From Telopea speciosissima (taxonomy: Eukaryota > Streptophyta > Magnoliopsida > Proteales > Proteaceae), in assembly GCF_018873765.1 (NCBI RefSeq), contig NC_057926.1, positions 51,265,043 through 51,329,042 of the forward strand: a DNA stretch of 64,000 bases, read 5' to 3'. Below, piece after piece: positions 4,841 through 45,300 of this stretch; position 1 is the first letter of the stretch, and every line of letters begins with the position of its first letter. The translations under genes were made by a program, and so were the position numbers. The notes below the pieces were generated by a model. It was not told the DNA's origin. It saw only the letters and a program-made list of their open reading frames with translations, and did not search any database.

Positions 4841-5269
4841 GGAAAATTACATGATTAGCTACGTTTGGGTTTTCATTTACAAAACTATCTACCCTATGTT
4901 TGAATAACAAAAATACACAAAAATAAGTGTAGTTTTATAGAATTAGACAAAACAGTGACTCTCCTTCCTTCCTCAATAGTTTCTCTCTGAAAAAATCTCT
5001 TTTTTTTTCCTCTGTTACTTGGGGTAGCAGAGAATGGCGGTGGCTGAGACAAGGGTAGGGTTGCAAAGAATGGAAGATGCCTGGGCGAGAAGGCAATAAC
5101 AGGGGTAAAAATGTCTAAAAAAATAAATGTGGGATAGTGGGAGGGAGAGACACTATTTTGTCTAGTTTTGCAAACCTTAACTTATTTTTGTGTATTTTTG
5201 TTAACTCAAACATAAGATGGACAGTTTTATAAATGAGAACCCAAAAATAGCTAATCATGTAATTTTACC
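4841..5269. mobile_element. MITE with about 100-bp terminal inverted repeats
   Basis: The left end (aaaattacatgattagct) is found inverted at the right end (5249-5267). The two arms stay similar for about 100 bp, including aacaaaaatacacaaaaata. The roughly 430-bp element has a variable core with no open frame. Long AT-rich inverted repeats suggest a Mutator-like non-autonomous element, but no clean 9-bp duplication is visible because the left flank is poly-T. It lies less than 300 bp before the intact PLAC8 copy. Confidence 0.75.
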
Positions 5270-5494
5270 TCTTTTGTTTCTAACAAGTCATTTACCAAAA
5301 AAAAATAGTCAATCAAGTCAATGAATAACAAGTACCAACGCGGAAAATGCCTTCCAAGGGACACGGTGAGCCGCCTAGCTTGACTCTCTCTCCTTGCTTC
5401 TTCCTTCCTTCCTTCCTCCCTTCCTCCTTCTCTCTGTCTCTCTTTCTCTCCTTCTTATACCGGTCACAGCCCAAATCCCAAGTTCCCACCCCAA

Positions 5495-5537
<43 letters not shown>
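5495..5537 (+). repeat. (TC)n microsatellite in the leader of PLAC8 copy 2
   Basis: An uninterrupted TC/CT run of about 42 bp ends about 27 bp before the ATG at 5564. The same tract, shorter, sits in the leader of copies 1 and 3. It lies in the presumed 5' leader and could vary in length between individuals. Confidence 0.85.
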
Positions 5538-5540
<3 letters not shown>

Positions 5541-5563
5541 CAATTGGAAAGTCGGCATCAAAC

Positions 5564-6323
5564 ATGTATTCATCTGAAAGTGTTTACCAGAAGTTCACCC
5601 CAGCACCACCTCCTCCACTAGTGAGTGCAGTGCCGGCCACCGGAATTCCGGCGAGTTCAACCAACCAGACATACAGTTGGAGTGGTACTCACACCACACC
5701 TACCCTTCCACCTCGCCCTCAAGCTCCAGTTCCTTGGTCTACTGGCCTCTGTGGCTGCTGTTCTGATGTTAAGAACTGTAAGTTCAATTAATCTAATCTT
5801 GCCAATTATTTCCAAATCTTTCAGAATCTTATATAAAAATTTCTGATTCCATTCCACAGGTTGCATAACATGCTGGTGTCCATGTATTACCTTCGGCCAA
5901 ATCTCTGAAATCATCGATAAAGGATCCAGTTCTTGTGGAGCAAATGGAGCACTCTATGCATTGATCTTGTGTTTGACTGGTTGTCAGTGCTGCTACTCTT
6001 GTTTCTATCGCTCTAAGATGAGACAACAATATAATCTTCAAAAGGATCCTTGTGGGGATTGCCTAGTTCATTGTTGTTGTGAGCTATGTGCTCTGTGCCA
6101 AGAATACAGAGAACTTGAAAATCACGGATACGACATGAAATTAGGTTTGTTTTTCTGATAATCTCTATTGGGTATTCATCTGATTTGAATTTTGAAGGTG
6201 TTAAATGGTTAATAATTATATATCTTGGTGTGATTTTAATTTGCAGGATGGCATGGTAATGTGGAAAAGCAGAACCGTGGGATAGCAATGGCTCCGATTG
6301 TGGAAGAGGGCATGACCCGATAG
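5564..6323 (+). CDS. PLAC8-domain protein (plant cadmium resistance/FW2.2-like), intact copy 2
   Basis: Exons 5564-5777, 5860-6144 and 6247-6323, all GT-AG, give 576 nt and a 191-aa protein. Residues 1-60 are proline-rich. [12 protein letters not shown] leads into the conserved core CCITCWCPC (residues 72-80) that defines the PLAC8/PCR family. Then come [10 protein letters not shown], a hydrophobic Cys-rich stretch (about 101-121), and a second Cys cluster [13 protein letters not shown] (about 139-151) before QEYREL. The tail ends GMTR, as in Arabidopsis PCR proteins. Family members are small plasma-membrane proteins affecting Cd/Zn tolerance or cell number; which role applies here is unknown. 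It is the only copy of three with an undamaged frame. The start is the ATG after the CT leader; splice phases 1 and 1 close exactly. Confidence 0.93.
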
Positions 6324-6840
6324 ACTGATTTAAGGAAGAATATCTGGTTCTGGAGGCGTCTAGTTCTTAATTGAAAGATGAATCTGTTACATATATATAT
6401 ATATGGATATAAATGAGAGAATATCAAAGGCCAAGTACTTGCCGGCCGCAATCTTTGGACGGCTAGCAACGGCCTTATCGTTGGTGATGAAACACTCCTT
6501 AGCCAACTTCCAGTTGCTAATGACTAGTGTTCGATGGATTGCCGAAACGAACAGTAGGTAGGGCAGTCATTGCACCCCTTGCCGTGTGAGGAAACACACA
6601 GGCAGGACGGGCAGGCGGCAGTAGAGGATCTAAATTGTCCTTGTAGTTTGTGTTTTGACCTATTAGGTTGCGTGAGTTGCTATGTTGTTATGTGTGAGAA
6701 GTGATTGTCGACAAAAAATTTTGGGTAGAGCTAAGATGTTACATACGAGAAGAGACCGTCCACACAAAAAAATTTGTGGAGTGACCTATGAGATTTTGTG
6801 TTTGTTATTTATTTCTTTTTATCTTTACTAATTTACTTAT

Positions 6841-6998
6841 GGGAAAAGTTTTCATACATGGTGGTGTAAATCGTATATGTGAGAGGGTGAGAGTTTCAAA
6901 GCATTAATTAATGGGTGGGGATTTATGACTTTTTCAACTCTTTGTGAGAGACACTCTCACATACACGGTTTACACAACCGTTTGTGAAAACTTTCCCC
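6841..6998. mobile_element. Short MITE with terminal inverted repeats
   Basis: It begins gggaaaagttttcata and ends gtgaaaactttcccc. The arms pair for about 55 bp, including gtatatgtgagag against ctctcacatacac. The length is about 158 bp and there is no coding capacity. No convincing target duplication was found. The 6324-6840 interval holds only the 3' flank of copy 2 and unassigned sequence. Confidence 0.7.
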
Positions 6999-7227
6999 TT
7001 TAAAAAATATTCAAGAGCTAGCTGATTTTTAAGAAAAAAAATCCATATAAGAATTTGAGCACAAGCTAAATTTCCACATGGCATCAACCTAGGGCCCCGC
7101 TGTTTTTTAGGATTCTTTACCTTTTTTCCCTTCTTGGTATTAGTTAACCATCCCCTTCCCCCCTCCCCTACCCCACTCCTCAAAAGAAAACGAATACTTT
7201 TAACTATGTTTTATATATATATAGAAC

Positions 7228-7359: not shown

Positions 7360-8344
7360 TGGAACAAAAACTCGATCGAAACTTGTTGAAACCATTGAGT
7401 TAACTCGGTTTTTCAGGTTTTCGAGACAAGTTGAAGGGGGATTTTATAAAATCCTTGGATTCGATCGGGTTTCGATGGTTTCGACACATATGCCCATCGA
7501 AACTCGGGAAAACTTGACTCGAAACTTGGACAGATAAGTATTTATGCTAGAAACTGTCAGAAATCAGGATAGACACTTAGTTATGTCTAATATCATTTAA
7601 GTAAATGTTTTATTTACTTAAGATATTATTCATAAATAAGCAAATACCTCATATTTGAATCCAATAAAAATAGTTAAAAACTCAAATTCCGAAAAGAAAA
7701 AAAGTCAACCCCCCAGTTCAAGAACAAAGATTGGATTTTCGATGGTAAGTGCAATTTTTAACTTTCTAATGCAGGGGTTTTTCTCAAATCTAAAAATTCT
7801 ATAAATATCATTATGGCAAAACATTGCTAAAAACCAAAAGTGCGGTAAAATCATTTGTTTTGATGTCCAAAAAAATATTTTCATTTAGAGTGATTTTGAC
7901 AGCATTCGCGCACACCAAATTAAGTTTGACTGGTTCATAACTCCTTCAATATAAATCGGACTTAAACAATCTTGGACTTATTGGAAAGCTATCAAAACAA
8001 AGCTTTCTAACAAATCCAAGATTGCTTAAGTCTCATTTATATTGAAGGAGTTATGTTCCGGTCAAACCTTATTTGATACCATGTCCAAAACAATATACAG
8101 TATCAAACTTGGATCAAAACCACAAGTAATATTTTTAGTGTTCTCTATGTGAAACTAATGCATGGATTGAGTTTAAAATGTCAAAAATAGGCAGCACAAC
8201 AAGAATCAGGGCAAAAAACCAACTTCTGGGCCTCAAAACCAAGGTTCAAGTTAGCTTGGAGAAAGTCCCAAGTTTCGACCGAGATATGGTCGAAACCGAG
8301 ATGAACTCATTTTCTGGCTGGTCGAAACCCGAGTTTTAGAACCT
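7360..8344. mobile_element. Non-autonomous foldback/MULE-like element with central palindrome
   Basis: The 12-bp direct repeat ttgatcttttca flanks the element at 7348-7359 and 8345-8356, consistent with a target-site duplication. The ends are imperfect inverted repeats (left ggaacaaaaactcgatcg, right read inward ggttctaaaactcgggtt). The interior contains a near-perfect palindrome (7918-8074): arms of about 58 bp around a loop that is itself partly palindromic (gaaagct ... agctttc). No transposase is present. The family is unassigned; a duplication longer than 9 bp is slightly unusual for MULEs. Confidence 0.6.
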
Positions 8345-10918: not shown

Positions 10919-11664
10919 ATGTATTCAATTGAAAATGTTCACCAGAAGTTCACCCCAGTAGCACCACCTCCTCCACTAGTGAGTGAAATGCCGGTCACCG
11001 GAATTCCGGCGAGTTCAACCAACCAGACATACAGTTGGAGTGTTACTCCCACCACACCTACCCTTCCACCTCGCCCCCAAGCTCCAGTTCCTTGGTCTAC
11101 AGGCCTCTGTGGCGGCTGTTCTGATGCTAAGATCTGTAAGTTCAACTAATCTAATCTTGCCAATTCTGTCCAAATATTTCAGAATCTTATATAAATATCT
11201 GATTCCACAGGTTGCGTGTCCATGTATTACCTTCGGCCGAATCTCTGAAATCATCGATAAAGGATCCAGTTCTTGTGGAGCAAATGGAGCACTCTATGCA
11301 TTGATCATGTGTTTGACTGGTTGTCAGTGCTGCTACTCATGTTTCTATCGTTCCAAAATGAAACAACAATATAATCTTCAAAAGGATCCCTGTGGGGATT
11401 GCCTAGTCCATTGTTGCTGTGAGCAATGTGCTCTGTGCCAAGAGTACAAAGAGCTTGAAAACCTCGGATTCGACATGAAAATAGGTTTGTTTCTCTGATA
11501 ATCTCTATTGGGTATTGACGTAATTTGAATTTTGAAGGTGTTAATGGTTAATAATTATATATATCTTGGTGTGATTTTAATTTGCAGGATGGCATGGTAA
11601 TGTGGAAAAGCAGAACCGTGGGGTAGCAATGGCTCCCATTGTCCAAGAAGGCATGAACCGATAG
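10919..11664 (+). pseudogene. PLAC8-domain gene, copy 3, frameshifted
   Basis: Exons by homology are 10919-11135, 11211-11484 and 11588-11664. Exon 2 is 274 bp instead of 285. Eleven bases are missing right after gttgc at its start, removing the middle of the CCxxxxCPC core and shifting the frame, so the normal splice gives a stop within a few codons. The remainder is very close to copy 2 ([33 protein letters not shown]). I looked for an upstream acceptor that restores frame (the AG near 11182) and it does not. Unless an unusual splice is used, the copy is dead. The leader has lost the long CT tract next to the ATG. Another possibility is that only the proline-rich N-terminus is translated. 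Confidence 0.8.
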
Positions 11665-13959: not shown

Positions 13960-14330
13960 CAATTTGTAAGATGAGGATGTGATAGATGGATGAACTTAAA
14001 CAAGAATCCTACAGAACAGCTATAATACCAGCAATGTTGTATGGAACTGAATGTTGGGAAACAAATAAACAAAGTGCAGCTGAAATGAGGATGTAGAGTA
14101 AAAAAACTACAAAAGACAAAACAATAGATGAAAGAATTCGAGAGGATCTAGAAATGGCTTCGGTAAAAGGAAAGTTGAAAGAAAGATGTCTGATGTGGCA
14201 TGGGCATTTGCAACAAATTCCTTTGAGTGCACCAATAAGGAGATGAGATATGATGCATTATAGAGTTTAAAAACCAAGAGGTAGACTGAAAATTACTTGA
14301 AAAGAACAAGTGATGAAATTATGAGATATG
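13960..14330 (+). mobile_element. RTE-type LINE fragment
   Basis: The + strand translates to pieces like IPAMLYGTECWETNKQSAAE and DERIREDLEMASVKGKLKER. They are closely parallel to the better preserved copy at 57118-57900 (RPAMIYGAECWIVKKSNIDK). This is the C-terminal tail of plant RTE-clade LINE proteins. It has in-frame stops and both ends are missing. Confidence 0.65.
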
Positions 14331-14379
14331 ATGCATTATAGAGTTCAATCAGCAACAATGGACAATAACACTAGAGGGA

Positions 14380-14535
14380 GGTTTTCATGCACGGCCATAT
14401 AAGGAGGGGAGGGTTACAATGTGTCAAATGGGGTGGGTGGGGGGGGTTGGTCATTTTGACCCCCTCTTCTTGTCCAATGGCAAAGGTCTGTGCTTGACCG
14501 TGCATGGTGCACAGCCGTGCACAAAACCTTTGGCC
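14380..14535. mobile_element. Short MITE
   Basis: The left end (gaggttttcatgcacggcc) pairs with the right end (gccgtgcacaaaacctttgg) in inverted orientation. A G-rich and a C-rich patch lie in between. About 155 bp, non-coding. Confidence 0.55.
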
Positions 14536-15199
14536 ATAACATTATTAAGAATTGAAGGTTGTCTGAGAGAATACTAACGAAGCTGATTGGTTTGATCCAG
14601 TTTCAGCCAACCAAGTGAAGGAGATGATGATCATCAGTATATTCATGACCTGCATGAGGAAGCTGATGGACTACTGTTACAAGCAGCAACCAGCAAGTAC
14701 TAAAAACTTTGGGTCTGACCTCAATCAATATTTTCTTAATTTTACAGAATTGGGCAACGTAATGGTCTTCTGGAAAGAGCATATCAAAAGATCTCCCAAA
14801 ATGAACGACTACTCATGGTGGTCAAGAAAATAGTTAAAAAGCTTTTTACTTGAGAATACCATCCAATAAAGAGGTCAAAGGCAAAGGAACAAATAACAGA
14901 AGTCACAAAGATAAATAATTTCATCATCAAATGAGCTTTAATGGTTGTAGCAAAGAGTATGTGAACAACCAAATCTAACATACATTCAACATGTAACAGA
15001 AACCCCACAACCTATCACCAAAATGCTACAGCTTAATAACAGTAGCAAGGAAGAAAGGGAGAAAAGGAAAGTTAAATACACACTGAGATGATCTTATGTT
15101 CCACATGATTGACCGAATTAAAAAACAAATCATAAACAGTTTGACTGAGAACAGAAATGTTTAAAAGACAGTAAAGAGAAGAAAAATATTAATAGAGAG

Positions 15200-15315
15200 A
15201 GAGATACCCACGCTGCCAGTGTGGGGAGGAATCTGCACACCACACCAATGGGTGTCCTGAAAAAGGTATCATCTATATGGGGCCACATTTTCAAAACAGG
15301 TGAGAGAAAATAATT
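15200..15315 (-). other. Exon-like unrecognised minus-strand stretch
   Basis: The minus strand encodes MWPHIDDTFFRTPIGVVCRF followed by LPTLAAW, which looks like a conserved protein core rather than random sequence. It is bounded by a pyrimidine-rich tract upstream. It could be an exon of the same decayed gene as 12700-13175. The family is unknown. The intervening 13280-15130 shows only LINE, MITE and unassigned AT-rich DNA. Confidence 0.25.
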
Positions 15316-15504
15316 AAAAAAAAAATCTTGTGAGAGGGAAACTGCAAACTGGCAGCATGACAATCTTTTTCCCATATTAATAAGACACTCCCCTTCCTAT
15401 TTTGTTTATATGATATATTACATGGCTGTTCTTGCTTCCTTGTTCATTATACTCTCTAGTCTTGTGAATGCTTCAAGTCAAGGTAGCTTGGATGTAAGAC
15501 AAAG

Positions 15505-15671
15505 AAAAAGGGCGTACCCAATGTACGAAGTTCCTGCTACTGCAGGCTCTGGGAGGGGCATACATATGCAGCCTTACCCCCACTTTTTGTGAAGAGGCCG
15601 TTTCCTTGTTCTAACCTGCGACCACCAGGTTGCAATAGAGCAACCTTACCGTTGCTTCGAGACCCGCCGTC
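15505..15671 (-). mobile_element. Au-type SINE
   Basis: Reverse-complement Au SINE: gggcgtaccc at the tail side, then ggggcatacatatgcagcc and a tRNA-like head ending ggttgcaatagagc. Related 17-bp sequences flank it (ttggatgtaagacaaag at 15488, ttgggtgtaggacatag at 15672; 14 of 17 match), a weathered target-site duplication that implies an old insertion. Confidence 0.8.
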
Positions 15672-16075
15672 TTGGGTGTAGGACATAGTTTATTTAAAAT
15701 ATATACATTTTGTTGAAATGTATTAGATGGCTGTAAATCACAATCATAGAGGTAAGGGGAACCACTGGCTATTTCAAACTAATAATCTCCGTGAACAAAG
15801 GGAAAAAAAAGAACAAACACTGTTGGAAAATACAAGGAGATATATTTTTGATAGTGTGTAAAACAAACCCAAAATTGCAGGTAAATATAAGAAACTAGTG
15901 GTTTCTTGAGTAAAAATTACCTCAAGAATCAAAGCTGTATAAAACCAAACACAAGCACTGCAACTCCAACAAACCCAATGGATTCACCATCTAATAAAGG
16001 GAGAGAAAGAGAGAAGGGGGTTAGGGGGGAGACTCGTCGCTGCCAATGACCATGTGTAGAGACTTCGGTGGGGGT

Positions 16076-16346
16076 GCAACTTGGTCTCTTGACACCTATC
16101 GTGATGAAGCTTGGCTGAGATGGAAGGTAAACCACAGGAGGTGTCGAGTCTATCGACAAAGCAGGGGCCCGAGGACCTCAACAAGCTTAAGGCATGTATT
16201 GAGTCGGGTTTTGGATTCGATTCTCTAGATCTAGATCAAAAGCTTTCCAATACTTCACCAACTTTGGGTCTATAGCATGCCATTAACAAGCAATACAGCG
16301 ATAGCATTTCCAAGTCATCGTCATCGTCTTCGGCTATGCCCTTATA
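16076..16346 (+). pseudogene. DUF1685-like gene fragment, left arm copy
   Basis: The + strand reads EDLNKLKACIESGFGFDS, then LDLDQKLSNTSPTLGL and, after a stop, HAINKQYSDSISKSSSSSS. In DUF1685 plant proteins the pattern is (D/E)DLDELKGCIELGFGF, then LPAL and YAVNKQY. The order and spacing agree. Upstream codons read TYRDEAWLRWKVNHRR, similar to the basic stretch before that motif in the family. Stops show that it is not functional. The identification rests on remembered motifs. Confidence 0.55.
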
Positions 16347-16632
16347 GTGCAATGCGTTGTCTCCCACTGAAAACCCCCCCACACCATTTTCAGCATTAAT
16401 AATCAATCTGTCAGTCTCAACCCCTCCCTTCAGATATGATCTACGTGTTTGTCCACACCCAGATGATCAAAGATTCTAATTCGCATGAACCTTTTGTCAA
16501 TTTTTCACTAGTAGTCAATGATGTTGGGTTGGTAACTTTGTTCTTTTTCTCCACCCCACCCCTCTTTCTCTCTCCCTCTCTCCCTCTCCCCCCCCCCCCC
16601 CCCCCCACCCCACACAAAAAAACAAAAAAAAT

Positions 16633-16991
16633 GGGTCTAACCGTCCACGGATTCTTTTTCTCTAATGGAAAGAGGGGGGCTGCTGTTCGGGAGGGATGGG
16701 GATGTGCTGGGTAGGCGGGGAGTGTGGGAGAGAAGTATGAAGAGAGTGGAGAGAGAAGCGGATAGAGGAAGTTGGAGAGAAAGTCGCAGGTGTCTTAGCC
16801 TCTTAAGAAGGAGTGATTATGAATAGTTAAATTGGAAGGTTTGCTTCAGTGTGTGATAGTGTATGGTGTATGTATTACATACTTCATTTAACTGGCAAAT
16901 CTCCACCTATCTAGAACAGCAACCACCCCCCCCCCCTTTTCCAATAAATGGAAAGAGGTTAGAGAAAAATAATCCATGCAAGGTTGGACCC
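16633..16991. mobile_element. MITE inside the foldback element
   Basis: It starts gggtctaaccgtccacgg and ends, inverted, with ccatgcaaggttggaccc. The shared inner part is attctttttctcta against tagagaaaaataat. About 360 bp, GA-rich core, no coding capacity. Confidence 0.55.
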
Positions 16992-17039
16992 GGTTTTTGT
17001 TTTAGAGGGGAGAAAGAAGATGGTAGGGATAGAAAAGAA

Positions 17040-18136
17040 GAAGAACCAACCCAACATCATAGATTACAACAACAGCTCAGCCTTATCCTAACTAAATGGG
17101 GTTTAACTACACGGATTCTTATAAGGATAAAAAAAAAATGATTAATAATAAGAATAAAGGACAAGGAACACAACAATCACAACTATAAATCAGTCTAAAA
17201 CAAACTAACTGGGATCAACTACACGGATCATTGCCCTCCAATCAGTTCTATTCGACGTCATTCTAGAAACAAGACCTAAACTATGCATGTGTTTCCTCTC
17301 CACTTCTCATCTCCGTTACACTTAGCTTATCCATATGACATTTTTTAACTACCCAACACTCTGCATCATACATCATAGCCGATCTTATGACTCTCCTGTA
17401 ACATTTTCCTTTAAGCTTTAAAAGAATCCGTCGATCACATAACACTCCGGATGCACCTCTCTACTTTTACCATCTTACTTTAATCCTCTATGAGACACCA
17501 TCTTCTATATCACCTTCCTTTACTGATGATTGATCCTAGATACCTAGAAAGTCCACTTTGCGAAATCTCCATTTTATCAACTTTCACCCCCTCATTATCC
17601 ATCCCGGAGTTGCTAGAATTACATACCAAAAACTCCGTCTTCGTTCTACTTATCTAAAATCTTTTTATTCCAAGGTTAATCTCTATAATTCCAGTTTTGC
17701 ATTGATTCCGATTTTTGTCTTATCCACCAAAACAATGTCATTAGCAAAAAACATGCACCAAAGAACCTCATCTTGGATGTCTCTGGTTAATTCATCCATG
17801 ATAAGCGCAAATAGATAAGGGCTTAATGCTAATCCTCTATGTAGCCCAACTGTAATTGGGAATTCACTACCTTGAGCCCTCATGGTTCTTACACTAGTCA
17901 CCACACCATCAATAATTTCTTTAATTATGTCCATATATTTAATCGAAACATGACAAATTAAATCTTTTAAGAATTCTGTCATAAGCTTTTTCTAGGTCAA
18001 TAAAGACCAAATGGAGATCTTTCTTGCTCTCTCTAAATCTTTCCAAGAGTCTCCTACGTAGGTAGATAGCTTTAGTTTTGGATATCCCTAGCATAAAACC
18101 AAATTGATTCTCTAAAATAGTGGTCTCTTTTCTCAA
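17040..18136 (-). mobile_element. RTE-type LINE 3' remnant
   Basis: The minus strand reads, in pieces, GFMLGISKTKAIYLRRRLLE, DLHLVFIDLEKAYDRI, LHRGLALSPYLFALIMDELT and MFFANDIVLVDKT. These are reverse transcriptase blocks ending in a degenerate form of the (Y/F)ADD catalytic box (FAND). The 3' end (+ strand about 17045-17110) has the ttaggataaggctgagctgttgttg-type tail of plant RTE LINEs. It is 5'-truncated and has frame breaks. Confidence 0.75.
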
Positions 18137-18315
18137 GTGTGTTACAATAACCCAGCATCATAAATTACTAGTGAAAATTTGACAAAAGGTTCATGTGAAT
18201 CAAAAGCTTTGATCATCTATTTGTGGACAAACACGTAAATCATATTTGAAGGAAGGGTAGAGACTAGACACACTGCTTACTGCAGCTGAAGATGGTGTAA
18301 GGGCTTCCAAAGGAG

Positions 18316-18590
18316 ACGATGACTTGGAAATGCTATTGTTGTATTGCTTGTTGACGGCATACTATAAACCCAAATCTGGCGAAGTATCGGAAAGCTTGCA
18401 ATCAAGATCTAGAGAATCGAATCTGAAACACAACTCGATACATGCCTTAAGCTTGTCGAGGTCGTCGTTAACGACACTCCTGCTTCGTGGACAGACTCGA
18501 CACCTCCTATGGTTTCCTTCTGCCTTAGCCAAGCCTCATCACGATAAGTGTCAGGAGACTAAGTTGCACCCACCGAAGTCTCAATACATG
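18316..18590 (-). pseudogene. DUF1685-like gene fragment, right arm copy
   Basis: On the minus strand the fragment reads DLDKLKACIELCFRFDSLDL, KLSDTSPDLGL, a stop, then YAVNKQYNNSISKSSS. It is the inverted partner of 16076-16346 and slightly closer to the family motif in places (YAVNKQY). Either both arms were made by inverted duplication of one captured fragment, or they are the terminal repeats of one element. No full gene is present in the window. Confidence 0.55.
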
Positions 18591-19513
18591 GTCATCGACA
18601 ACGACGGGTCTCTCCCCCAACCCCCCCCCCCCTCCCCTTCTCTCTCCAAAATTTTTCTCGTTGATGCATCATTTTTTCTCACCCTTTAGACGAGATTTTT
18701 TTTTTGGCTGCGCAAGAAGAAAAAAAACTCATTCCCGATGCTATTTTAAATTCAAACATGGGAATCTTCTTTCCAGGGGAATATAATCCAAGTACGAGGA
18801 AAAATGAGAGGTAAGAAAGTTGTACAGATTTGTATGGCTTTCTTTTCTTTTCTTTTCTTTTTCATTCATGGAAAACAAACATAGTCTTAGGTTTTACAAT
18901 GTCAAATTTTCAACCACACAGTGTTCCTATTAAGTTATTAACCAACTGAAGAAGCTGACTTGGCCATCTGTTACTTTCCACCTTTTTCAAGCTCTGTTCT
19001 ATCAAAACAAACACCTCCATATATGGTCATCTTCCAAATCCAACATATCTATGCCTTTCCAACACCTGTCTGGTGTAGGTGCAGCTTCCCTTCTTCATCT
19101 CCTTTCTAGAAATGCATAGATTAGTTCAGCATTCTGCAGCAATCGCCAAGACAGTACACATGATTGAACTTTTATTGCCTCATTTGTCATAACCAGATAG
19201 AAGTGAAATCAGGAACCATCTACACAGATAAGCCACTTCAACAACATCTATTTGTAACCTTGTGTTTCCGAATGCTGTTCAATCTCATTGGCAGTTAGAC
19301 TATGGGGCCTGTCAATGTCTTCCTTCTGAATCATTCTATTCAGAAGCGGCCATTAGTTCTTGAAATTCAGATACTTTTCCTCGATCCCAGAAGTTTGAAT
19401 TGGTTCTCTCTTCTTCATTGATTGTCTCCACACAGCAGTAGCAATAGGTTTTGAACAACCAACAGACTAAAAAGAAAAAGAGAAAGAGATGGAGCATACA
19501 GGTCAAACCAGAA

Positions 19514-21505
19514 TCACCAAAAGTCTCCACATGAACAAAACCCATCCTTGAAATGGTGGAAATAATTGGGATCCTTCAAAAGGATCTCTCGCCCAACAAT
19601 CTTTGAGATGAACTTAGCAAAATTGTGGCTGTTACGGCATACCCGGAGGTTCTTGGTAACACGAATGGTTGCCCTTCCCTGCATACTGATCAGGCCAAAA
19701 GAGATGGCCAACATTTCACTATGCCCAATTGGAATGCACTCTCTCTCTTCATCCACATCATGGAGGCTGAAATCTGCATCAGGCACATAACCTTCTTGCT
19801 CTTCCATTTTCTTCATTAAGCCCTGTAATTCCTCATATATCCTCACTGATCTTGGGTGGGAGACATCCCCCACCCCAAACACATGAAACTTGTTCTGGAC
19901 CTCAATCCAGCTATAAGCTTTCCTTGGCTTCAAACCCATATCTCGAATAACTTCTTTCAATCTGATGAGCATATCCATTTTCGTGCTAGCAGCATAAAAG
20001 TTAGACAGTACAACATAATTCTCAGCATTTAGAGGTTCCAACTCAATCAGCTGATCAATGACTCGTTTAGCTATGTTCATGTTTCGGTGGAGCCTGCACC
20101 CATTAAGCAGTGCTCTTTGAACCTCTGCATGCCGTTCAATCTGGTACTCCTTAATAAAGGCCCTAGCTTCATCGAAGTGCCCTGCTTGAGCCAATAGAGC
20201 AACCATTAAAGCGTAGTGGTCAACCTTGGGCGCCGTGATGTGATTGAAGTAAGATCTTCCCTCCTCAACCATCCGCGCGGTGCAACAAGCATGCAGGAGT
20301 GCAACATACATGATCTGATCTGGTTCTATTCCTCCATGTTTTTCCACTTCCCGGAACAATTCAACTGCCAGCTCCCCTTGTCCATGTAAGCTATAACCCA
20401 AAATCATTACAGTCCAAGAGATAGCATCTTTCTCCCCCATTCTTGCGAAAACCTCTGAAGCATATTCCAGGAATCCTGATTTTGCATACATGTCCATCAT
20501 TGCATTTTGGACTGTTACATTTAAGTTGATATTGTTTCTTATTACATATGCATGAATCTCTTTCCCATGTTTACTTGCGGATATTCTTGCACAAGCAGGA
20601 AGAACACTAGAGACCGTCAATGAATCTGGTTTTATCCCTTCAAAATTCATTGATCGGAACAGTTTAAGGCCTTCATTGAATCCCCCATTCTTCACATAAC
20701 CACGAACAATAGCTGTCCATGAAATGGCATCTTTGGAGCGCATTCGATCAAAAACTAAACGAGCATCTCTAATGCTGTTACAATCAAGGTACATTTTCAA
20801 GAGTGAATTGCTCACTAAAACATTGGATTCTAATCCTAGCCTCCTCGCAATCTCATGTACCTTTCTTCCTTCCTGTAGTGATTTTAGACGCCCACAGGCT
20901 CCGCTAACAGTTACCAATGCAACATCATCAACCTCAAAGCCCAGACTCACCATTTGGAGAAAGGTATCAATGGCCGACTTGGGTTTATCTTCCTTGATGT
21001 ATAACCCAACCAGCAAAGTCCAAGAGACCTTGTTCCTCCGAGAGGATTGGCTAAACAAGTATTGTGCGGTATCAGCACTGTCAAGATGCCCATACATTGA
21101 CATTAAAGCTGACAACACATACTCATCGGGACCAAACCCAAGCTTCAGAGCTTGCCCATGAATCTGTTTTCCATAAAACAAGCTGCCCGAAAGACGAGAA
21201 GCAGTTAAAATGCGAGGGAGAGTATGTTTATCGGGACGGACTCCTCGCAGAAGCATGTGATGATAGATCAACATAGCCCGTTCGGGATCTCCATCGCTGA
21301 GATGGCTTTGTACAAGGGTGTTCCAAGCAAAGGTATCTGACAGAGGAATTTCGTCGAACGCTTGATGGGTGGTGGATAAGACTCCAAGTTTAGAAGACCA
21401 AACACGAAAGGGTTGACCATTATGGAGTTGCCTATGAGGAGTTCGGTCCGGTGGTTTTTGAAATGGGAAGAAACACTGAATCTGTAAACATTCACGGAGA
21501 GCCAT
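19514..21505 (-). CDS. DYW-class pentatricopeptide repeat (PLS-type PPR) protein
   Basis: Single exon, 663 aa, as is usual for the family. The N-terminus (MALRECLQIQCFFPFQ...) is basic and poor in acidic residues, compatible with an organellar targeting peptide; which organelle is not clear. Repeated PLS units follow, with typical signatures such as DTFAWNTLVQSHLSDG, DAISWTAIVRGYVKNGG, DAISWTVMILGYSLHGQGE and ACxRLxSLQEGRKVH. An E/E+ region (LLNGCRLHRNMNIAK, IELEPLNAENYVVLSNFYAA) leads to a DYW domain ending CSCGDFW. Such proteins bind organellar RNA and act in C-to-U editing. The HxE motif is present (HSE, 595-597), but the following CxxC reads CRNS (623-626), so one zinc ligand is Ser (codon 19628-19630). 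The terminal triplet is DFW instead of DYW. The start is the first in-frame ATG. Confidence 0.95.
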   Translation of the reverse strand: MALRECLQIQCFFPFQKPPDRTPHRQLHNGQPFRVWSSKLGVLSTTHQAFDEIPLSDTFAWNTLVQSHLSDGDPERAMLIYHHMLLRGVRPDKHTLPRILTASRLSGSLFYGKQIHGQALKLGFGPDEYVLSALMSMYGHLDSADTAQYLFSQSSRRNKVSWTLLVGLYIKEDKPKSAIDTFLQMVSLGFEVDDVALVTVSGACGRLKSLQEGRKVHEIARRLGLESNVLVSNSLLKMYLDCNSIRDARLVFDRMRSKDAISWTAIVRGYVKNGGFNEGLKLFRSMNFEGIKPDSLTVSSVLPACARISASKHGKEIHAYVIRNNINLNVTVQNAMMDMYAKSGFLEYASEVFARMGEKDAISWTVMILGYSLHGQGELAVELFREVEKHGGIEPDQIMYVALLHACCTARMVEEGRSYFNHITAPKVDHYALMVALLAQAGHFDEARAFIKEYQIERHAEVQRALLNGCRLHRNMNIAKRVIDQLIELEPLNAENYVVLSNFYAASTKMDMLIRLKEVIRDMGLKPRKAYSWIEVQNKFHVFGVGDVSHPRSVRIYEELQGLMKKMEEQEGYVPDADFSLHDVDEERECIPIGHSEMLAISFGLISMQGRATIRVTKNLRVCRNSHNFAKFISKIVGREILLKDPNYFHHFKDGFCSCGDFW

Positions 21506-21937
21506 TTACACGCTCCAGCCTCCAGGTTCTTCCAGTTCTTGATTTCATGTATCGGAGAAAGTTGTGTGTATAGGGAGATACGAAACACAAGGGTCAAAAG
21601 GGTGAGAATTGCAAAGAAGAGAGGATCGGATGTGAGAAACCCATCGCAAGGATTAACGATCCGTGAAGGGAGCATACCAACCCCATGGCTACATCTTCTA
21701 ATCTTCATCCCTATCTTTGCCATCGTAGCAACTAGCAACGTTAACGGCCATTTTGGGAAACAGAGTAGTACTTTTTGGTAATTCCAACTGGAAAAGTATA
21801 AATGTCTCTGTAAACTCGTGACTTTGTACTTAATGGTAAATTCTCTTTTTCACTGTAAAATGGTTGGATAGAATCCTAAATACACCGTATAGTTATTTAT
21901 GTAACAATGGAATGTATTTTTTCGAAAAATCACAAGA

Positions 21938-39300: not shown

Positions 39301-42300
39301 AAATAGGTGTTTTCTTGTTACAGAGGTCTTTACTGAACCAATATCAACTTCTTCATCACATTACCCCAAACTTCCAAGCTTTTTTATTAGTCAATTAACG
39401 TGAGCCTTATTTTTAGCCCTACAAATAAGTATAGATTGTTCAATTTATTCAATGGGAGTTAATATCTTGCATTTTCACTGATCTAGACAAAAAAATCTTA
39501 TTTAGTGTTCTCGTGTTGATTTCTGTTTGACTGCCTAAGACAAAGGTGTTCCTGACATCAGTTACCAAAAAAGGATTGTGCGTCTTGCCATAGTCAATTA
39601 AAAACTGCCAAGTGTTCTACTGAATTTCTCTCATTGTTTTGTGTTCTGTTGTTCATGCAGAGAGCTTGTTTTATTACTGAGCAGTGAAAACAAGTTATAT
39701 GTGCTACTTATGGACTTCACATCTAATGGGTCAGGTTAGTTGTGTTTTGTATAAGCTCCTCATGGGAGGCATACTTTAATTACTTGGTAGTTACTGCCCA
39801 GTTAGAGACTACCTTCCATAGATTGATTGGCTAAATGACTATTATAGTATAATTTGATTTTAATTTCACAGAAACTGTCTCAAAAGTTGTGGGGTGTCAT
39901 AGGCTTGAAGATGTTAAAGAAGTTGAGGTCGGTATTGGGCTACATGTTTTGAGGTTAGTATGTAGGTTATCTTTTCTAAAAGTCATTAAATTGTTTAATT
40001 CTCGTGTATTCATCTCTCTCTCTCTCTCTCTCTCAGTGTGCATTTTGAGATGGATTTACCATACATATTCATAACAAGGAGCATTGATAAATCAAGAGAA
40101 TTGTTATGTCTCTTGCAAGTTTGTGATATGTCTGCAACAAGTAATAAATGTTTACTAAAGAGGTAACTTCTCCTATACTATTTCAGCTTCAAACCTTTGG
40201 TATTCAAAGCAAAATGATTACTGATTCTAGCTATATTTAAAACTAAAATGAAGACAAACACATTTATTTGTGATACTGATTTGTTTGTTGGGACTGGACT
40301 GGGACCTTGAATTGAAATAACAGTCTGGAGCAGATTCAAGTCGAATTGTTTGAGAAACATGTCTGTACTGGTCAAACGATGAGCATGTTCTTGTACTCAA
40401 TGTTGCTTTTTTGGCACAGCAATAGTAAAGGTACATTTGGTTCACATTGTTCATTTTTACTCCATTTTATCATGGGGTAGTGAATTACTTTTATATATAA
40501 GCTTCTTGATGCATTCCAAGTGATCAAAATTGAGTCTCACTGCCGAACTTTGACAACCATCTTTCAACTTTCCTGGTATTATGATTGTTTTTATACACTT
40601 TAGCCTTGTGTTAGCCCAGAAATGTTTATGGCGGATTCTAATTAACATACAATGCTGGAATGGCTATCATAGTTGTTACTGAACTTATCTTGACATGTTA
40701 CATTGGTACTTGAGATGGTTGCTTCTTTTGCTTCAACTGACTATATTATAAGTTTTCATTTAGATGAGGATACATTAGAATAGAGAGAATGTAGTAATCA
40801 AGGAGAGAGAATTAAGAAAAAGCAGCATTGTATAGCAATAACAGTGTCAACAGCCAAAAAAGCAATAATGAAGTTAATTATTGACCTAACTGTGGCCCAG
40901 CTACCCCATAAGTTCAAACCAACTGTGTCTTCAATTCCAAATATCTAAAATAGTCACCACTAGTTTCAATTTCCAGGCCTCTACTTATACAATGTTTCAA
41001 AGTCTTTATTTAATTCATTATACTAAGACTCCTGATGTAACCCTGGGTTCTGAAACCCTTAAAGTTGGATTGCTGTGGGTCCACAAGCATGGTAAATAAC
41101 TCAAATCAAGGACAAAGCGGAAGTTCGGTAATTAACTTGAAACTCAGACCGAATAAGTGAAGATTGTAACAATGTTAAAGCATTAACAACCAGCAACAAT
41201 GGAGAATAGCAAAAGAAAGAGGAAGAGAAGTCGAGAGAGAGAAGGAAGTAATAGAACTCTGCCCACGGTTGAGTTGTGAACAAATTACTCAAACCATGGG
41301 CTAAATCATGTATTTATATTAACTAAAAGACTTAACAACCGAGACTTAAATTAACTGAGTCATCTAGTACTCAAATACCCCTCACTAACTACTTACTAAC
41401 TAAGACTAGTAACAATTACTGCCCCAAAAAAAAAAAAAAACTAAGACTAACAATAGAGCAATAGAACACATTGACCCATAGATCCAAGACTACACTTAAC
41501 ACTTCCCCTCAAGTTGGAGCATAGACATCACCCATGCCCAGCTTGGAACACCTTTGTAGAAATACGTTCCAAAACAAGGCTTTAGTAAACAAATTCGTAA
41601 GCTGACTATGAGAGTTGACAAACGGAGTGGAGATCAACTTCTTCATCACTGTGTTCTGAACAAAATGACAATCTACTTCAATATGCTTCCTCCTCTCATG
41701 AAAAATTAGATTATTAGCAATGTAAATGGCCACTTGGTTATCGCAAAACATCGCCATCGGCTTGTTGGTTGAATAACCAAGCTCTTGAGGACCTGAACAA
41801 AGGACCGAAGCCGCATCAACTCAGTGGCAGTGTCAGCCATAGCTCGATACTCCGCTTCAGTACTCGAACAAGTCACAGTAGTTTGTTTCTTACTCCTCCT
41901 TGTAACCAGATATCCGCCAAAGAAGGTACAATATAGCCTGTAGTAGATCATTGATCATCAACCCAGCCCAATCAGCATTAGGATAACCAACAGTACTAGT
42001 GTGACCATGACGACGATAAATAAGGCCTTTCCCTAGATCTATCTTAATATACGACAGATTGCCTCCCAATGAACTTGCATAAGGTGTTTTCATGAACTGA
42101 TTAATCACACCAACAACAAAGGAGATATCAGGCCGGGTAACGGTAAGATATATAAGCTTATTGACTAGTCTCCTATATTGATGTTTATCTTCAAACTCCT
42201 TGTCATCAGAAGTTCCAAATGTGATATGAGGGTCCATAGGGGTATGTATAGACTTACAACCTAACATCCTTATCTCACTCGGGAGATCAAGAACATACTT

Positions 42301-45300
42301 CCGTTGAGACAAACTGAGTCCTTTCTTACCATGAATGACTTCAATTCCAAGAAAGTAGCGGAGAGCGCCCAAGTCTTTCATTTGAAAATGCTGCTGTAAG
42401 TAAGTCTTAACTTGTGCAATTCCAGATATGTCATTACTAGAAACAATGATGTTAGCAACATAAATGACCAGTACAATAACTTTAGAGTCCTAACGTCGAA
42501 TAAAAACTGAGTGATCTGAGTAACACTGAGAAAACCACATGCAGCAACAACGTTGCTAAATTTATCAAACCACACTCTTGGGGACTATTTCAGCCCTAAA
42601 TGGCTTTGTGCACCCTACAAACTTTCTTTATTTCTTCCACCTGAGCAACATACCCAGGAAGTTACTCCATGAGTATTCCTACATCCTACCCATAATTTAG
42701 GCTCTCATTAAAGTGGCCTATTACAAAGAAAACCCATTGGACCAAAGGCCCAACAGATATATTACCCAACACAGAGCTTATTTCTAATAAAATAAGCCCA
42801 TTTGTGTGATTTATCTGCATCACCCCATATCCACACGCCCTTGCCACAAAGAAACAGCCATGACCACTGGGAAAAAAGCCTCAGGAAACAAGTCCAGAAT
42901 CCATGCAGATCTTCACCCACATAATCCCCCTCTGGATGGTTACCTACACACTTATATATGGACATCAATTTTTGGGAAGCTTTTTCTTGGACATGGTTGT
43001 TTGTTTAAGGCATTTTTTATTTCCCGGTTATTGATTAACACTAAGTGATGTTGCTTTTGACTCTTCTATAATGGTATACTTTGGTTTCTTTCAGAAAATG
43101 TTAGTTTTTATGCATGGTTGTTGATAGTTAAGTCACAATTGGACAGAGGAATCGTGGCTTTCAAGATCCCTGTTTATAGTTGAAGGCTATGTGCTTGTGT
43201 GCATTGAAGACCTTATGCAGTTCAGCTCTCTTTCCATGGATGATGTGTCATGCTCCTCATATCTAACGCTTGATTTGTGCTGCTCCATCGGTGACATATC
43301 TGAGATGGTAATCCTGGGTTACTTTTGCTTTTTAAAAAGATTCTTTGTCTACATGTGGAATCTATAATAATTTTGGATGATTTTGTCCTATTTACCGGAA
43401 GCACACAAACAGATTGTATCGGATATCATTTTAGTACCTGTCTGCTTCTTGTGCAATCATGCTGCCTTCTAGCATAACAGCTGCATGAATAATTGGAACA
43501 AGTTTGATTAAGATTACTCATGTTGCTGTCATCTTTTGGCTTTGCTATACCAATTTATTCCTGTTTTTCAAGAGTGGTTATTTCATGCTCTGAATAAAAT
43601 TTTAAGTTGGTTTCTTATTTATTTATTTATATATTCAGTTTCATCTAATGAGATTATATAGAATGTAATAGCTTGTATTTGTACCACTATATTGTAAATT
43701 TTTTAGTCACCATAATTCTGCCTTCTAGCAAAACAGGAATCTTATTTACTTTTAGTCACCATAATGCTCTGAATAAAATTTTTAGTCAGCATATACCTGT
43801 CTGCTTCTTGTGCAATCGTGCTGCTTTCTAGCATAACAGCTGCATGAAGAATTGGAACAAGTTTGATTGAGATTCCCTCATGTTGCTGTCATCTTTTGGC
43901 TTTGCTATACCAATCTATTCCTGTTTTTCAAGAGTGGTTATTTCATGCTCTGAATAAAATTTTAAGCTGGTTTCTTATTTATTTATTTACATATTCAGTT
44001 TCATCTAATGAGATTATATAAAATGTAATAGCTTGTATTTGTATCACTAGATTATATTGTAAATTTTTTAGTCTGTCACCATGGCAGTAAAACTGAGGAA
44101 TGGAATTACACAGAGCGCAATTACTTAATGCTGATGAACAAGAGAATCCCAAGCAGTTTATTTTTCTAAGAAAAAGGTTCTCTGAGCCACTGGGGTAGAG
44201 TACACTAGCATCTCTGTCTATCTCTCTTCTCCTCACATGAAATGACCTTGTTTCCCTTCAATGTAGGTTACCATTTTGCCGCCCTTCATTGGTTCACTCC
44301 GCTGTACTGCTTGTTTAGGGAACCCTCTCCCATTTTTTTTTTCTCTTATTTCAGCTTTCTGTTCTCCTAGGGTGGGGAACTTGTGGATTATCTCCATATA
44401 ATTAAATTTCAGTTGCTTGAGTGTGTGAAAAGAGTGGTGCTTACTGGTTGTATATGGTGAAAAAAAAATTTAATATGACATAAATCCAGCAATAGTTTAG
44501 GGCAGAATGGTGGAGAGTCAAGCCATCAAGAAACAGTTAAGTTAATTAATGACTATTCTTTTTATTTCAGTAGGTATATGAAGGCAAAAGTAAACAAAAT
44601 TGGGACTAACATTCCCAGGAAAAAAAAGGGTGTACCCAGGGCACGAGGCTCCCGCCACTGCCGGGTCTGGGGAGGGTCATAATGTATGCATCCTTAAAAC
44701 TGCTTTTGCAGGGAGGCTGTTTTCAGACTATGGGATGTAAATAATTCCTGCAATATATTCATACACAAAAAGGTCATCATCTATGAAATAATCAATTATC
44801 CTGAAGGATTGAGCTTCAATCAGTTGTGGTTGTGAGAGCTTTCAGTATCCAGAGTCTTACTAATGATGAACAGTAAGTACAGCCCATCTCATTACCCAAA
44901 AAAGAAAGGGACAGCCTTCTTTGTGAATATTCAGATTCTAAAATGATAAGCATATGTGTTCAGAATAAGTCAAAAGGAAGTATCCTCCATATAGTCTGTC
45001 CCTCCTTGAAACTACAGGCATGGTTCTGAGTGATTAAAAGGTTGGTTGAAATGTGTTTGGTGACTGTTCATGAAATGTATAATGGTTGTGTGGAAAGAGT
45101 AGGAAAGACAATAAAGATCAGGTGTGGATTACCATGGTGCAGCTATAGAGGTTCTGGTCCACGTCAATAGGTAGGAATTTCCATCGATTATGACAAAAGA
45201 ACATCTGGATGATGGTTTAATATTTTCGAGTTTCAAACAAAAAAATAAAGTCACCTTTAGATTTGAGATGGCCCCCATTAATGTTTCTCTGTATGATGGA

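Follow-up and report, generated by a model that had tools for sequence, protein, structure and literature searches.

What is the origin of the inverted pair of DUF1685 gene fragments in the genome of Telopea speciosissima, and could RNA read from it act on the gene family from which it came? We addressed these questions within a stretch of 64,000 nucleotides (hereafter the window) and by searches of the whole genome. Our answer, to which we assign a probability of about 80%, is that the locus is a DUF1685 pseudogene standing in mirror image, which was duplicated in inverted orientation, decayed, and was later hit by a LINE. In a literature search on DUF1685 function, the word occurred in 8 papers, but in the title or abstract of none of them.

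Layout of the palindrome

The original prediction described arms of about 550 bp in opposite orientation. The orientation was confirmed: when positions 15901-17000 were compared with the reverse complement of 17901-18800, BLASTN returned a single alignment of 523 columns (E = 6e-113), of which 399, or 76% when gaps are included, are identical. The outer arms contain five ungapped inverted blocks of 153, 109, 59, 57 and 37 nt, which are 85-89% complementary. The block of 153 nt is the longest ungapped inverted pair listed in the window, for arms at most 6 kb apart and a minimum length of 50 nt. After removal of the LINE, the mirror symmetry extended inward to about 16728/16886, and the arms proved longer than predicted, at about 660-730 nt each, the right one being interrupted by the LINE. 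The predicted limits of 15975 to 18690 place the start about 25 nt too early and the end about 45 nt too late. The features are given in Table 1.

Table 1. Features of the palindromic locus, in window positions; arm ends and loop limits are approximate.
Feature	Position	Strand	Remarks
Left arm	16000..16728	+	5' stretch common to right arm only (16000-16082); exon 1 pseudogene of DUF1685 (from 16083, ending around 16397); part derived from the intron (around 16397-16728)
DUF1685 (PF07939) match, left arm	16171-16332	+	69.2 bits, cut-off 21; one TAG inside
Inter-arm loop	16729..16885	.	About 160 nt
Right arm, inner piece	16886..17067	-	Intron-derived; includes the LINE target-site duplication copy 17048-17067
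LINE fragment	17068..18148	-	Reverse transcriptase pieces in two frames: RVT_1 29.7 bits (cut-off 29.6) and 24.3 bits (below cut-off)
LINE target-site duplication, second copy	18149..18168	.	18/20 identical to 17048-17067
Right arm, outer piece	18169..18645	-	Beginning of the intron; exon 1 pseudogene of DUF1685; 5' stretch common to left arm only
DUF1685 (PF07939) match, right arm	18314-18475	-	61.9 bits, cut-off 21; TAG at the same codon as in the left arm

Over their full length, the arms share 626 aligned positions, of which 136 differ (95 transitions and 41 transversions), and gaps occupy another 136 columns. Because 136 of the 626 aligned positions differ, an assembly artefact is unlikely. 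A MITE nested in the centre, for which the inner inverted repeat at 16621-16665/16959-17003 was considered, is not favoured, since the symmetry there is continuous with that of the arms and intron-like sequence is present.

A decayed DUF1685 gene fragment in each arm

The presence of a DUF1685 fragment in each arm, also predicted, was borne out by the profile search, in which both arms scored above the gathering threshold of PF07939. An in-frame TAG disrupts both frames, and the pieces that precede the stop still match the profile by themselves, with 43.4 bits in the left arm and 36.7 bits in the right arm. Between the arms, the differences by codon position were 12/76, 9/77 and 13/77, an even spread as far as these small raw counts show. 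In the two comparisons of the arms with C4a, an intron-bearing relative described below, they were 14/76, 10/78, 23/77 and 12/79, 9/79, 18/79, with differences commoner at the third position (small raw counts again). These sequence comparisons suggest that the arms decayed with no sign of coding constraint. Decay driven by methylation was also considered and left no clear signature: differences of the C-to-T type were about equally frequent at CG (13/71) and elsewhere (82/506).

Relatives in the genome and probable origin from unspliced DNA

Searches of the 823-Mb genome with the arm DNA found, besides both arms, 7 places for the left arm and 8 for the right arm, all of them DUF1685-related. 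The palindrome thus does match a gene family of its own host, as the original prediction had supposed. The parental gene that was to be sought is represented by relatives only: no near-identical parent was found in the genome, and the 7 compared members lie at K2P distances of 0.19-0.27 from the arms. These 7 members, common to both arm searches, were aligned together with the arms. The place at C3:68304621, found by the right arm only (75% over 132 nt), was compared but kept outside the alignment and the tree, as were four further PF07939 places (C8:61849737, C6:44975767, C8:60550042 and C6:22991687). The left arm region also matched the C8 member over 32 nt of low-complexity sequence, a match that was disregarded.

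Matches to the left arm start at or after 16082 and all stop by the end of exon 1, except that of C4a (C4:18906713-18907058), which extends into the intron. An intron interrupts both C4a (290 nt) and C5 (C5:58426064-58426293; 90 nt), and their joined exons encode open proteins. In C9, C10, C3, C8 and C4b, that is 5 of the 7 aligned members, exon 1 is fused directly to exon 2; being intronless, these members look like retrocopies. Members C9, C3 and C4b are also disrupted by in-frame stops or a frameshift. One small DUF1685 gene, with an intron-bearing relative on C4, seems likely to have been retroposed repeatedly.

The arms themselves appear to have another origin. In local alignments with the 290-bp intron of C4a, the left arm scored 34 and the right arm 38, each above all 300 dinucleotide shuffles (maximum 32), the best alignment of the left arm being an A-rich stretch. 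For the intron of C5, none of 300 shuffles reached the score of the right arm and 7 of 300 reached that of the left arm. Since both arms hold intron sequence, they most likely derive from unspliced DNA, i.e., from a duplicated, unprocessed pseudogene. A processed retrocopy was rejected as their source because of this retained intron, though 5 of the 7 aligned members are intronless. The A-rich match and the C5 result of the left arm count against our preferred reading, as does the 5' stretch, which has no donor source in the plant's own genome. An 81-nt query from the left arm (16032-16112) found the arms and nothing else at E up to 1.

Kinship of the arms and proposed order of events

When the 7 family members and the 2 arms were placed in one tree (9 rows), the arms paired with moderate support (83/85); 1 of the 6 inner branches was firmly supported and 3 of the 6 were open. 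Against the arms as sisters, the distance between them (K2P 0.174) is only slightly smaller than those of the right arm to C4a (0.191) and C8 (0.192), which are nearly as close. The arms have in common a TAG in the same codon and a segment of 9 bp, both absent from the 7 other aligned members. Both features would predate the duplication or have spread by gene conversion, which could be an alternative source of what the arms have in common.

Another way to obtain such a pair would be two separate insertions of one pseudogene in opposite orientation, and the arms could in principle have come independently from a donor that was later lost. We consider this very unlikely, as it must account for the stop codon, the 9-bp segment and the 5' stretch common to both arms, and for a mirror symmetry that begins at the 5' ends, continues across the intron and nearly reaches the loop. 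Under the preferred reading, i.e., one inverted duplication, the history would begin with a copy of a DUF1685 gene that was under constraint, the copy being unspliced and genomic and comprising the 5' part, exon 1 and part of the intron. This copy would have gained a stop codon and become a pseudogene. A tail-to-tail duplication of the pseudogene would have followed and produced a palindrome with the arm lengths given above and a loop of some 160 nt. The two arms would have drifted apart with no trace of constraint on coding before a LINE fragment landed in the right one. RNA reading through the locus could then fold into a long imperfect hairpin, according to computed folding only, and dicing of this hairpin and silencing of DUF1685 relatives would be possible further steps.

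The LINE in the right arm

By its sequence, the segment at 17068-18148 is best taken as a LINE insertion, of a clade that is presumably RTE-like. It is flanked by a target-site duplication of 20 bp with 2 mismatches, and none of 500 random pairs of 35-base stretches was as good, the best having 4. Of 6410 candidate relatives in the genome, the 40 that were scored showed 78-85% identity over long matches; most of these matches end near 18151-18153, and many have a separate piece starting near 17064. From its length and its partial reverse transcriptase, we infer that the copy is 5'-truncated. The coordinates of the relatives also suggest that some 215 bp near 17300, present in those relatives, are missing from this copy.

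A transposon reading

Pack-MULEs and foldback transposons have long inverted repeats that carry host gene sequence. The Telopea locus resembles this anatomy, its long inverted arms having host gene content, and the original prediction called it a foldback element. A foldback or Mutator-like transposon whose terminal inverted repeats had taken up a DUF1685 fragment is nevertheless highly improbable. Between the outer flanks, exact direct repeats reach 6 bp at most, a length equalled or exceeded in 371 of 495 random pairs; the left copy of this repeat lies some 30 nt beyond the arm. Thus, no outer target-site duplication was found, in a search for exact repeats only, by which an old, mutated one could be missed. 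No extra copies with common ends were found in the 823-Mb genome: the arm DNA found only the arms and the DUF1685-related places mentioned above, the 5' query found the arms alone, and the inner part gave 3 weak partial matches besides itself. This DNA search passes over simple repeats and very common words, by which the G-rich outermost 30 nt are less well tested. Also, the inner arms show similarity to an intron. A foldback or Pack-MULE element is therefore not favoured, because neither an outer target-site duplication nor further copies were found, and the name given to the locus is not supported in the sense of a transposon.

Predicted hairpin and the question of silencing

The expectation that a transcript would fold into a long hairpin was upheld, as a computed result. 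The LINE-free RNA of 1545 nt reached -841 kcal/mol on the plus strand and -903 kcal/mol on the minus strand, with 414 and 469 arm-arm pairs, respectively. Ten shuffles, which cover the LINE-free plus strand only, ranged from -445 to -476 kcal/mol with 0-141 arm-arm pairs. With the LINE kept in, 410 and 445 outer arm-arm pairs persisted. Given this strong computed folding, RNA transcribed through the locus could adopt a long, imperfect hairpin structure.

Silencing of DUF1685 genes by such a hairpin is possible, and the locus could be read as a natural hairpin-RNA or young MIRNA-type locus that arose by inverted duplication (the Allen model) and whose small RNAs would silence DUF1685 genes. Besides the strong computed hairpin, many 21-nt windows of the arms match relatives at 0-2 mismatches, and between the right arm and C4a there are 4 exact and 26 one-mismatch windows. 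The longest perfect run of the stem measures 22 bp (16301-16322) and exceeds 987 of 1000 column shuffles, the other 13 reaching it. This run may point to a small-RNA segment that has been kept, though the arms diverge unevenly along their length and the 16301-16322 segment is similar in coding relatives too. Support also comes from rice, where two inverted pseudogene pairs, with 83 and 96 in the identity column, gave small RNAs, with predicted hairpins as their source (Guo et al., 2009; PMC2708354). The case with identity 83 has a loop of 1,283 nt and a transcript predicted as a hairpin with a duplex of 185 nt. In the case illustrated in the same paper, however, no parent-derived small RNAs were detected, which speaks against silencing at the Telopea locus.

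Other results give silencing no clear support. In a plus-strand transcript, the 95 transitions between the arms would give 39 G-U pairs and 56 A-C mismatches (p = 0.10); in a minus-strand transcript these are reversed (G-U 56/95). Neither strand is distinguishable from even, so selection for pairing leaves no clear mark in the substitutions. A search of Rfam over 14000-21600 found no match to a known RNA family up to E = 1. On balance, we judge a hairpin-RNA or MIRNA-type locus unlikely. Its active form, in which small RNAs, for example from 16184-16216 or 16301-16322, would dampen the DUF1685 family and the LINE would be a mere bulge, is decidedly unlikely. In our view the locus is more likely inert, or the source of only locally acting 24-nt siRNAs.

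Surroundings of the locus

Next to the palindrome, at 19514-21505 on the minus strand, lies a long open PPR gene with E, E+ and DYW deaminase domains. Two similar proline-rich frames were observed on the plus strand at 1648-2019 and 5384-5791, the frame at 1648 being without a Pfam match, and a PLAC8 domain at 10983-11498 (plus strand); together they hint at a tandem PLAC8 cluster. Shorter inverted repeats at 261-572, 4843-5266, 6831-7008 and 7916-8075, with arms of 58-75 nt and 79-85% identity, are perhaps MITE-like, as a guess. A reverse transcriptase fragment of the RVT_2 family, which we take to be Copia-type, lies at 41890-42489 on the minus strand.

Relation to known systems and significance

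The rice pairs (PMC2708354) and the Telopea locus are alike in having adjacent pseudogene copies on opposite strands and a predicted hairpin transcript. They differ in that small RNAs were mapped in rice; also, the Telopea stem is longer (about 500 nt in its outer and about 180 nt in its inner part) and has a LINE inside. The inverted-duplication model of MIRNA origin (Allen et al.) is described and updated in another paper (PMC3237417). The model shares with our locus adjacent, convergent segments of a protein-coding gene that are able to fold back. Unlike a MIRNA of this model, the Telopea locus is without an Rfam match. Since inverted pseudogene pairs have been published for rice, this kind of locus is already known, and the Telopea locus is a further candidate.

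If it is transcribed, the locus would offer one more natural case in which to test whether and how an inverted pseudogene turns into a regulator of its own gene family. At present it appears to be a clear fossil of the first step, in which the order of events can be read from the sequence.
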